NCBI GenBank assembly: GCA_903916765.1
Contig: CAIWXV010000078.1
Span: forward strand, 1-35,571
Direction: 5' to 3'
DNA from: an uncultured Dehalococcoidia bacterium
GTDB taxonomy: Bacteria > Chloroflexota > Dehalococcoidia > Dehalococcoidales > Fen-1064
DNA length: 35,571 nt
Part shown: piece by piece, positions 5,486 to 9,014 of the stretch
Position numbering within the stretch: position 1 is the first letter of the stretch
Layout: the number at the start of each line of letters is the position of its first letter
Notes under the pieces: generated by a model
Seen by the model: the letters and a program-made list of their open reading frames with translations, nothing else
Told to the model about the DNA's origin: nothing
Database searches by the model: none
Position numbers and translations under genes: made by a program

Positions 5486-6091
5486 CTATCTCTTCCGGTA
5501 CAACCTGTTTTCTTCGATGTATTTCTCAACTGCTGGGGGTACTAAATATTTGATAGAGTGACCCTCGGCTACTCTATGCCTGATATCGGTAGCGCTGATA
5601 TTTATTAGTGGCTTATCCAGAAAAATAACCCTCTTCGCTAAGCCGGGAATTGTGGCTTCCAGAGATTTGAGGTCGGGACGGGTATAACCGGGTCTACAGA
5701 CAACCGCTAGGGAACACATCTTTATCAACCTCAATGGTTCTTTCCAGTAAGGCAACTGTACCAGACTATCCCAGCCCATGATTAGAAACAACTCAGATGC
5801 TTCGCCAAGCTCTGTTTTCAACTGGGTAATGGTATCAGCGGAGTAAGATGGTCCCTGACGCTCTACTTCAACCGTAGAGAGTTTGAAGTAAGGTCTGCCG
5901 TCGATTGCCAGTAATACCATCTGGACTCTGTGGATAACCGAGAGGATCGGCTTGCCCGATTTCATCCACGGTTGGCCTGCAGGTAGAAAAAGCACTTCCG
6001 CTAGGTCGAGGTCAGCTCTTGCTTCGTAGGCAATCGCAAGATGCCCGTTGTGGATGGGGTTGAAAGTTCCGCCAAGGATGCCTACTTTAAT
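5486..6091 (-). CDS. nadD: nicotinate-nucleotide adenylyltransferase; apparent ATT start
   Basis: Extended upstream of the listed ORF: (I/M)KVGILGGTFNPIHNGHLAIAYEARADLDLAEVLFLPAGQPWMKSGKPI...; GGTFNPIHNGH nucleotidyltransferase motif and C-terminal ISATDIRHRV. In-frame TAG (obgE stop) at 6097..6095; no ATG/GTG/TTG before GTG at 5995. Confidence 0.9.
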   Translation of the reverse strand: MKVGILGGTFNPIHNGHLAIAYEARADLDLAEVLFLPAGQPWMKSGKPILSVIHRVQMVLLAIDGRPYFKLSTVEVERQGPSYSADTITQLKTELGEASELFLIMGWDSLVQLPYWKEPLRLIKMCSLAVVCRPGYTRPDLKSLEATIPGLAKRVIFLDKPLINISATDIRHRVAEGHSIKYLVPPAVEKYIEENRLYRKR

Positions 6092-6094
6092 TTT

Positions 6095-7351
6095 CTACCA
6101 CTCCCATTCGATATTACCACAGCGTACCTTATGCCCATACTTGATACCGGCTTTTTCCAAGGCCTTGTCAATACCCCACTTGGTTATTTGCCCGCGTACC
6201 TGCCCCTTCACCACAGGGTCGCTCATATCCACTCTTGCCACAATACGTTCCAAATCCGGCATCTGGATGACAAAAGCATCGCCTTTACCGGTTACCTCCA
6301 CGCGGTTACGCCGCGGGTGGGGATGGAATACTTTGGGAGCAGTTTCTTCCGTATGCACATCGGCTTCTTTTAATAAACCCATTAACATTCTCATAAGCTC
6401 AGTGATACCCTCACCGGTTACAGCGGAAATGAATCTCACATTGATTCCGGCTTCATGGAAGGCTATTTTGATTTCATCTTTTCTTTCTTTTACCTGAGGT
6501 AAGTCAATTTTATTGATAATGACAATCTGAGGCTTCCGAGCCAACCGAGAATCGAAGAGGCTGAGTTCGTTATTCACTTTTATCATATTGTCCAGAGGAG
6601 AATCCGCCGTGCCGTCGATAAGGTGAATCAATACTCGGGTGCGCATACTGTGGCGCAGGAAATCATGCCCCAGCCCGCGTCCTAAATGAGCACCATCGAT
6701 TAACCCCGGGATTTCGGCTAAAACAAAGGTTCCGTATTCTACTTCAACGATACCTACCACCGGCTCCTTGGTAGTGAAAGGGTAATCAGCTACCTGCGGT
6801 TTAGCAGCAGTAGCAAGTGCCAGTAATGATGACTTCCCAACATTCGGATAGCCGATAATACCGACATCGGCGATTAACTTCATTTCCAGCAAGATAATCT
6901 TTTCTTCCCCGTTATCACCGGCTTGTGCCAAGCGGGGGGTCTGGTTAGTAGACGATGCAAAGTGGATATTTCCCCAACCACCTCTGCCACCCCGAGCTAC
7001 TGCGATCTGCTCTCCATCCTTTCCCAAATCGCCTAGCAGCATATCTGAATCATCCTTGTTCTTTTCATAAACCACAGTTCCTTCCGGAACCTTCAGGATA
7101 AGGGCATCTCCATTTTTACCGTGTTTCTTTTGAGCCTGACCATTCCCACCATCTACCGACCGATACAAACCCTTTTTCTTGAAACCCCACAGATTCATCA
7201 CTGAAGGGTCAGCTTGTAATATAACATCTCCACCTTTACCCCCATCCCCACCATCAGGACCACCAAAAGGTACAAACTTCTCCCTACGGAAGGTAATTGC
7301 ACCGTTACCACCCTTACCAGCTTTAACACAAACTTCAACGATATCGAACAT
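6095..7351 (-). CDS. obgE: Obg family GTPase
   Basis: 418 aa; FDIVEVCVKAGKGGNGAITFRREKFVPFGGPDGGDGGKGGDV, GYPNVGKSSLL, C-terminal OCT-like domain. Confidence 0.97.
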   Translation of the reverse strand: MFDIVEVCVKAGKGGNGAITFRREKFVPFGGPDGGDGGKGGDVILQADPSVMNLWGFKKKGLYRSVDGGNGQAQKKHGKNGDALILKVPEGTVVYEKNKDDSDMLLGDLGKDGEQIAVARGGRGGWGNIHFASSTNQTPRLAQAGDNGEEKIILLEMKLIADVGIIGYPNVGKSSLLALATAAKPQVADYPFTTKEPVVGIVEVEYGTFVLAEIPGLIDGAHLGRGLGHDFLRHSMRTRVLIHLIDGTADSPLDNMIKVNNELSLFDSRLARKPQIVIINKIDLPQVKERKDEIKIAFHEAGINVRFISAVTGEGITELMRMLMGLLKEADVHTEETAPKVFHPHPRRNRVEVTGKGDAFVIQMPDLERIVARVDMSDPVVKGQVRGQITKWGIDKALEKAGIKYGHKVRCGNIEWEW

Positions 7352-7403
7352 TTAATGTTATGGTACACCAAATCATTCTCTTTTTCTATATTGGAGAAGG
7401 GAG

Positions 7404-7438
7404 AAGTAGTAATAATATAGGGGAGGGCGTGTGTAACA
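7404..7438. other. DnaA-trio-like tract, GC cluster and box-like site (candidate origin unwinding element)
   Basis: AAG-TAG-TAA-TAA (7404-7415), GGGGAGGGCG (7420-7429), TGTGTAACA (7430-7438; reverse complement TGTTACACA is 7/9 to TTATNCACA). Confidence 0.25.
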
Positions 7439-7498
7439 GGCGTTGAATTGCGGCAGAGGATATTATTTTGGGAGTTTCTTGGAATCGACCGGGGGAAA

Positions 7499-7567
7499 AG
7501 TTATAGAAAACCGCAGGGAGTTATCGAAAAAAAGAGAGTGAATTTAAAGATTTGCGGAAAGTTACCG
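7499..7567 (+). repeat. Short direct repeats AGTTATnGAAAA beside the 3' end of dnaA
   Basis: AGTTATAGAAAA at 7499-7510 and AGTTATCGAAAA at 7519-7530 (20-nt period); degenerate AGTTACCG at 7560-7567. Confidence 0.6.
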
Positions 7568-8887
7568 TTAATTGCGAGCGCGGGTGGAATGAATTCTCTG
7601 TTGGATATTGAAGATCTGTCGTTTCAGTAACGGGTCATTGTTGATAGCATCGGATATCTTCCCAAATGCATAACTGACGGTGGAAGAGCTCCGGTCACCG
7701 AATTCCTTACCGATTTCCGATAGAGAGCAATCGGTTTCCTGCCGTATCAGATACATGCACAGGTGGCGAGCAAAAACTGTGGCCTCATCCCGTCTTTTGC
7801 CTCTAAGGTCGGAGAGGGTCAACTGGAAAGTGCCGGCGACTGCTTCGGTGACGAGGTTTGGGGTGACGATTGCTAGCTGGGGTTCCTTGCCGACGATATC
7901 TTCCAAGGCACGCGCGGCGATTTCAGGGGTTACCATCGTTCTCAGAAGCTTTGAGTAAGCGACGACCCGGTTTAGGGAACCTTCCAATGCCCGTATATTT
8001 TCTTTAATTTGGAGAGCAATGAACTCCAGGACATCAGGGTTGATATCGACACCGTCCCGCTCGGCTTTAAGTTGAAGGATGCCAAGGCGGGTTTCAAAAT
8101 CCGGCGATTGAAGGTCGGCTACCAGCCCCCACTCAAGACGGGAGCGCAACCTTTCTTTAAGCATAGGGATAGATTTCGGTGACTGGTCGCTGGCAAGAAC
8201 AATCTGTCGGTTGTTGCTGTGGAGCTCATTGAAGGTGTAGAAAAAGTTCTCCTCGGTTTGTTCTTTGCCAGCGAAGAATTGCACATCGTCTACCATCAGA
8301 ATATCGACAGTGCGAAACTTCTTACGAAATTCATCGGTAGTTTTTTCGCGGATGGCGGTGACCAGCTCGTTGGTGTACTGCTCGGCGCTGACGTAGAGGA
8401 CTGCCAGATGGTTGGCGACAGCCCTGTTACCGATGGCGTGGAGTAGGTGAGTTTTGCCGAGGCCTGCTCCGCCGTAGAGGAATAAGGGATTGAAAGCCAG
8501 CCCCGGGTTTTCTACTATCTTAGCAGCGGCGGCATAGGCGAGGTTATTGGAATTGCCCACCACGAAAGTATCGAAAGTATATCTGGGATTGAACAGTGGC
8601 AGGTTAGTCCGCCCAGGTAGAGTTTTTTCGGTGTTGTTGGCGACGCTAAATTCAACCTTAACGGGTTCCCGGAGGACATCGGTAAGCACCTTCTCGATGA
8701 GAGAGTGCTGATTTCTCCCTAGATACTCGGCTATAAAAGTGTTAGGTACGCCAACGACAAATTTTCCATCCTGATAATTTTGACCGCAGGTCTTGTTCAG
8801 CCAGGTGTGAAAATTTGCCTTACTGACCTCGAGTTGTAATTGTCCTAAAGCGGCTTCCCAGATTTCCGGGGCCGAACGAATTATCAT
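7568..8887 (-). CDS. dnaA: chromosomal replication initiator protein DnaA
   Basis: 439 aa; GGAGLGKTHLLHAIGN Walker A, ILMVDDVQFFAGKEQTEENFFYTFNEL, SRLEWGLVADLQSPDFETRL; domain IV KRRDEATVFARHLCMYLIRQETDCSLSEIGKEFGDRSSSTVSYAFGKI. Confidence 0.97.
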   Translation of the reverse strand: MIIRSAPEIWEAALGQLQLEVSKANFHTWLNKTCGQNYQDGKFVVGVPNTFIAEYLGRNQHSLIEKVLTDVLREPVKVEFSVANNTEKTLPGRTNLPLFNPRYTFDTFVVGNSNNLAYAAAAKIVENPGLAFNPLFLYGGAGLGKTHLLHAIGNRAVANHLAVLYVSAEQYTNELVTAIREKTTDEFRKKFRTVDILMVDDVQFFAGKEQTEENFFYTFNELHSNNRQIVLASDQSPKSIPMLKERLRSRLEWGLVADLQSPDFETRLGILQLKAERDGVDINPDVLEFIALQIKENIRALEGSLNRVVAYSKLLRTMVTPEIAARALEDIVGKEPQLAIVTPNLVTEAVAGTFQLTLSDLRGKRRDEATVFARHLCMYLIRQETDCSLSEIGKEFGDRSSSTVSYAFGKISDAINNDPLLKRQIFNIQQRIHSTRARN

Positions 8888-9014
8888 AGCTATTCCTAAT
8901 CCAAACTACAGGCTCGGAGTAAGCACAACTATACCCCCTTACGCCTTCTGCAGGTTGGTGAAAAATATCCCGGGTCCGATGATGACAAGTAACGATTACC
9001 AGAATAATATGTCC

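Follow-up and report, generated by a model that had tools for sequence, protein, structure and literature searches.

A DnaA lacking D433 and H434 in its recognition helix and predicted variant DnaA boxes beside its gene in Dehalococcoidales

DnaA-box recognition is treated as nearly universal, yet within one order, the Dehalococcoidales, which includes Dehalococcoides-type genomes, this essential initiator seems to have changed together with its origin. DnaA contacts the bases of its box through positions 399, 423, 432-435 and 438-439 (E. coli numbering; PMC5043019). R399 is a minor-groove reader of TTA (PMC5742627). At position 7, which belongs to the 3' half of the box, the nucleobases are contacted by D433 and L438, and the equivalent of D433 is described as highly conserved across all bacterial classes (PMC8235120). 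In 2008, TTATCGAAA was proposed with Ori-Finder as a species-specific DnaA box of Dehalococcoides (PMC2275245). Here we describe the DnaA encoded in a 35,571-nucleotide stretch of DNA from an uncultured Dehalococcoidia bacterium (the window) and compare its recognition helix, and the sequence beside its gene, with those of its relatives.

The window carries an intact dnaA ORF of 439 aa (7568-8887, minus strand). Its product matches Pfam PF11638 (DnaA_N), PF00308 (Bac_DnaA) and PF08299 (Bac_DnaA_C) above cut-off, i.e. domains I, III (AAA+) and IV, and the best PDB matches to its AlphaFold model (13-sequence alignment, mean pLDDT 84.8) are DnaA structures. It is the sole copy, the only PF08299 match across the organism's own 1.37-Mb genome (149 contigs), and presumably binds boxes and opens oriC to start replication. 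An earlier note on this DNA had read Ser-Ser-Ser in place of D433-H434-T435, which we confirmed: S400 (7688-7690), S401 (7685-7687) and S402 (7682-7684) are encoded on the minus strand by codons AGC TCT TCC (7690..7682). The note had allowed that an alignment shift, or a frameshift or assembly error at 7682-7690, might lie behind this triad, and neither was borne out. The recognition segment FGDRSSSTVSYAFGKI aligns gap-free with E. coli 1J1V FGGRDHTTVLHACRKI and B. subtilis 8BTG FGGRDHTTVIHAHEKI (RSSSTV vs RDHTTV), so that no shift gives back DHT and this possibility was rejected; a frameshift was rejected too, as the frame runs on into YAFGKI and DnaAs of the same genus align across the site. 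In the AlphaFold model the recognition helix spans residues 401-417 and starts at S401; that of E. coli begins at residue 434 (PMC5742627). Among the base-contact positions listed in PMC5043019, the window DnaA keeps only R399 (R366; 7790-7792, minus strand) and R432. The changes named in the earlier note, at D433, H434 and T435, all stand, but its list lacked three others that the alignment reveals on the same strand: L438>S (S405; 7673-7675), H439>Y (Y406; 7670-7672) and P423>S (S390; 7718-7720). The first of these matters, since column 438 is, with 433 and 434, one of three that track the box.

The closest relatives with names, Dehalococcoidales and other Chloroflexota MAGs, are 85-87% identical to the window in DnaA. 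Within our sample the exact SSS triad occurs in the window's species alone; its nearest relative has SPS, one C>T away (CCT vs TCT at the S401 codon), and the norm in the family is RSPATISYA or RSPSTISYA (triads SPA and SPS). T435>S is not special: many DnaAs of the class read DHSTV, and the box does not vary with column 435. The weight that the earlier note had put on T435, and on the three serines as a unit, found no support, and we rejected the triad as the meaningful unit. How widespread the change is, a question left open there, could be answered by aligning DnaA across Chloroflexota: it is an order-level trait. Among 130 sampled Dehalococcoidales DnaAs, D433 and H434 are both lost in 81, D433 alone is kept in 25, H434 alone is kept in 3, and both are kept in 21; D433-H434 is kept in 61 of the 86 DnaAs sampled from the rest of the class. 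Ser occupies position 438 in 73 of the 81 Dehalococcoidales proteins without both residues. The meaningful change is the joint loss of D433 and H434, which is older than the SSS triad.

Two other deviations in domain IV were seen. In other families of the class it is strongly degenerate (Bac_DnaA_C E-values down to 1e-4), as in family f67 (L192, L194-L196, L198-L200) and in loci L183, L184, L186, L187, L191 and L193, and no TTAT array was found 3' of dnaA at these loci. A second weak Bac_DnaA_C match (L051, G017:C15:111701-111868; E 5e-4), in a 322-aa frame, occurs alongside a normal dnaA in the same genome.

Downstream of the window dnaA lies the gene for the Obg GTPase (obg; 6095-7351, minus strand), its 3' neighbour here and in most relatives. 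The intergenic region between them (7352-7567, no strand assigned), a candidate oriC, holds two predicted variant DnaA boxes on the plus strand, TTATAGAAA at 7501-7509 and TTATCGAAA at 7521-7529. They are 20 bp apart and both lie within 12-mers AGTTATNGAAAA, namely AGTTATAGAAAA at 7499-7510 and AGTTATCGAAAA at 7519-7530. Boxes of the TTATCGAAA type or close variants are thus clustered beside dnaA, although two is few for an origin. Canonical TTATNCACA boxes clustered at dnaA are absent from the window, whose single TTATNCACA match (5929-5937) is intragenic and at chance level. Thermotoga-type ACCTACCAC boxes without the TTAT half were not found either: the repeats keep TTAT, and the intergenic region has no other direct repeat family.

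The signal of these boxes is their pairing, position and conservation, not the abundance of TTATNGAAA, which alone shows no enrichment (3 matches in the window vs 2.1 expected). Paired TTATYRAAA boxes 3' of dnaA were found throughout the window's family, as direct repeats TTTYRATAAC approximately 30-65 bp beyond the dnaA stop and ahead of obg (GTTATYRAAA on the other strand). The organism's own genome has 8 exact copies of the 12-mer pattern, and an adjacent pair only at the window dnaA. When the genomes of 15 relatives were searched with the paired pattern TTATYRAAAN{10,12}TTATNRAAA, all 7 matches were 3' of dnaA and the reversed control gave 0; a stricter version, run on 151 genomes of the phylum, matched at the dnaA arrays in two Dehalococcoides-type genomes and at two sites elsewhere, with zero for its control.

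Two further stretches near the gene recur in relatives. At approximately 8980-9010, upstream of dnaA, a TATTATTCTRGTTATCGTT-like stretch is conserved in the window's genus and some relatives, and is possibly a promoter -10 element with an autoregulatory variant box, TTATCGTT, after it. At 7404-7420, GAAGTAGTAATAATATAG recurs in relatives on the box strand, as a DnaA-trio-like or obg promoter stretch. A search for the DnaA-trio found a TAGTAATAAT-like motif on the box strand, approximately 90 bp from the window boxes, in 18/89 variant vs 7/82 DH loci; this is only suggestive of a conserved DnaA-trio, and the motif is possibly the obg promoter instead.

To relate boxes to protein type we compared approximately 210 Chloroflexota dnaA loci, and then an expanded sample of 285 loci that includes other phyla. 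Array boxes read TTATNNACA in lineages that keep H434 and TTATYRAAA in those that have lost both D433 and H434. D433-H434 lineages can carry an array (TTATCCACA>20>TTATCCACA>21>TTATCCACA) that matches in place, orientation and spacing the one of lineages without these residues, for example TTATCGAAA>20>TTATTGAAA>21>TTATGCAAA. The earlier note had predicted a box that keeps TTAT and differs in the CACA half, floating TTATCGAAA; the comparison of the ~210 loci supports this, with TTATYRAAA standing in for TTATNCACA in the orthologous arrays of both-lost lineages.

The difference is clearest at base 8. Counting every TTATNNANA on the strand opposite to dnaA, up to 350 bp 3' of the gene, we observed C47:A1 for proteins with DH, C9:A1 with H only and A66:C3 with neither, and no such bias in the same-strand control; in the 285 loci, the counts were C91:A7, C19:A2 and A104:C4, respectively. 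When arrays were called only as pairs of TTAT sites 19-22 bp apart, disregarding the 3' half, base 8 was 38 A:2 C with both residues lost vs 0 A:23 C with H434 kept (Fisher 3e-15, ignoring kinship). De novo 7-mer enrichment, with no prior motif, returned TATCGAA/TATCAAA and TTATCCA/TATCCAC for these two groups, respectively. Per-genome exceptions to the pairing of residues and boxes occur, mostly as single sites. Base 6 is mixed in variant arrays (G, A, some C and T). In partial-state DnaAs (NH, TH, GH) base 8 is mostly still C and base 6 is loosened; one such locus, L150, has boxes TTATTGACA, TTATAGACA and TTATCAACA. No recognisable array was found 3' of dnaA in several variant lineages, including genus g47 (L101-L105, L349-L351), of the family of the Dehalococcoides-type genomes. 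This genus has triads TAA, AAA and SAA and other genes 3' of dnaA, and its origin may have moved away from dnaA.

We then asked which residues follow the box, computing the mutual information between each of 433 DnaA columns and the box base (104 genomes for base 8). Kinship inflates all columns alike, and hence the ranking of columns is more telling than any p value. The top three for base 8 were 434 (0.61), 438 (0.60) and 433 (0.55), against a mean of 0.084 (sd 0.088) over the 433, and within the order alone columns 438, 434 and 433 ranked 1, 2 and 4. For base 6 the top three were 438, 433 and 434. For base 5, not thought to be read by DnaA, these three columns ranked no better than 85, 142 and 242. 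R399 and R432 are nearly invariant, and the T435 column is uninformative on the box. This ranking agrees with the published contacts of D433 and L438. Outside the helix, L315 (domain III, near the linker; codon 7943-7945, minus strand) follows box type nearly as closely as D433 does: the position is Leu with AAA boxes and Thr, Phe or Val with ACA boxes.

The position of the array relative to the origin could be observed in a complete Dehalococcoides-type genome (G145). Its sampled GC skew stays mostly positive over the first ~0.68 Mb and is mostly negative thereafter, and this change of sign places the origin at the dnaA end. The array at this skew origin comprises TTATCGAAA twice and TTATAGAAA, at 1706-1755, and there is no TTATNCACA in the first 5 kb. 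The skew of a genome of the window's own family (G010), from sampled stretches, was too noisy for origin placement, so that the window's origin is placed by analogy with the G145 skew origin: the dnaA-obg region would be oriC in the window's species.

Taken together, the window DnaA is very probably an ordinary initiator with a re-specified DNA-reading helix, whose predicted cognate boxes, approximately (A/G)TTATYRAAAA, lie 3' of dnaA. The retained R399 would presumably still read the TTA(T) half through the minor groove. Losing D433 and H434, in most cases along with L438>Ser, would remove the major-groove contacts that demand CACA, and the altered helix would prefer an A-rich 3' half, by direct contact or through A-tract shape. 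DnaA would presumably assemble on two to three boxes, phased by 20 and 21 bp directly 3' of dnaA on the opposite strand, where the TTATCCACA boxes of D433/H434 lineages have the same place, orientation and spacing, and open the origin there. The changes of residues and of boxes, their covariation and, in a Dehalococcoides-type genome, their position at the skew origin were observed directly; DnaA is predicted to bind the variant boxes physically, and residues 433, 434 and 438 would cause the changed preference.

The main rival reading is that specificity has been relaxed and not switched: bases 6 and 8 would no longer be read, and AT drift or the needs of unwinding would make the sites A-rich. 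The mixed base 6 of variant arrays and its loosening in single-loss lineages such as L150 fit this view, but we consider it unlikely, given that relaxation alone would yield mixed bases and base 8 is almost fixed as A when neither residue is kept (104 A:4 C:14 T:1 G in the expanded sample), even at ~50% G+C, while the opposite strand of the same regions has no preference for A. It is extremely unlikely that the repeats serve another regulator, or form part of a post-dnaA terminator, and are not DnaA boxes at all. They are indeed T-rich on the dnaA strand just beyond the stop codon; however, no inverted-repeat terminator was found beneath them in the window, they keep TTAT, they occupy the site of TTATCCACA in DH lineages and share its 20/21-bp phasing, their bases follow the DnaA recognition residues more closely than any other DnaA column, and in G145 the array sits at the skew origin.

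Shared ancestry alone, with one clade changing both traits and no causal link between them, deserves attention because nearly all both-lost loci with a called box sit in one order-level clade (support 99 in trees built from DnaA domains I-III) and contrasts on well-supported branches number just 2-3. Ancestry would nevertheless act on all 433 columns, yet the leading three are base-reading residues, also within the order, and the unread base 5 has no such link. On the best tree the protein trait changes approximately 6-7 times among genomes whose box was called, and neither any of these changes nor any well-supported contrast goes in the opposite direction. We hold this explanation to be highly unlikely, and repeated switching of the DnaA/box code is suggested by the trees. 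A sequencing or assembly error at 7682-7690 in a canonical DnaA could be suspected from the restriction of the exact SSS triad to one species, but its probability is practically negligible: D433/H434 loss is order-wide in separately assembled genomes, which refutes an error as its cause, and at most a single Pro>Ser at S401 would be affected, leaving the conclusion unchanged. Nor does the one TTATNCACA of the window, at chance level inside a gene, speak for a canonical protein.

A one-to-one rule of residue and base is weakened by family f36. In 24 genomes D433 is kept, H434 is A or P and position 438 is mostly Thr. About half of these have a third box type, ATnnTCACAAAA repeats spaced by 11 bp within ~350 bp 3' of dnaA (family f36: L339, L310, L330, L334, L338, L344, L341); CACAAAA is on the box strand in 12/32 loci and on the other strand in 0. 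This family, which has lost H434 and seems to keep a CACA core, departs from the simple rule and weakens the proposal that H434 alone sets base 8, so we restated the rule as loss of D433 and H434 together. There is an even chance, in our judgement, that within the Dehalococcoidales the initiator and its boxes have split, in step with each other, into three or more working codes: TTATNCACA with D433-H434, TTATYRAAA with both lost and L438>S, and the 11-bp-phased ATnnTCACAAAA of f36. If so, mixed arrays and intermediates differing by one residue would mark the route along which the specificity of an essential initiator changed.

These loci may be a rare case in which nature has recorded the joint change of an essential protein and its DNA target, the latter from TTATCCACA to about TTATCGAAA, pointing to 433/434/438 as a specificity switch. 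Canonical relatives and partial states exist side by side, making the change of code testable with a few point mutants and oligonucleotides. Origin finders that look for TTATCCACA will overlook these candidate origins.

Compared with domain IV of E. coli, B. subtilis and M. tuberculosis on TTATNCACA (1J1V, 8BTG, 3PVV/3PVP), the window DnaA shares the fold, a helix-turn-helix aligned without gaps, R399 and R432, and the TTAT half of the box; it differs at D433, H434, T435, L438, H439 and P423, and its predicted box has RAAA and not CACA as 3' half. Epsilonproteobacterial DnaAs also have lineage-specific residues at the start of the helix (K432, S435 and S438 in many), linked to an altered box preference (T at position 5, contact with G4), but unlike the window they keep D433-H434 and the CACA half (PMC5043019). 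The best precedent is the DnaA of Thermotoga maritima (RSHPVV), which likewise deviates from the DHT signature and whose box, ACCTACCAC, is changed as well (PMC10316083; PMC7561715), although in another phylum, with other substitutions, and with a box of unrelated sequence that has also lost the TTAT half. The Ori-Finder box of Dehalococcoides is the same TTATCGAAA, proposed by comparative genomics in the same order, and here it is found at the skew origin of a Dehalococcoides-type genome. That proposal covered one genus and named no residues, and a search mostly of literature outside subscription found no paper tying TTATCGAAA to residues of DnaA domain IV. The present analysis follows the box across the order, the window's family included, with a looser consensus of TTATYRAAA, and ties it to positions 433, 434 and 438.
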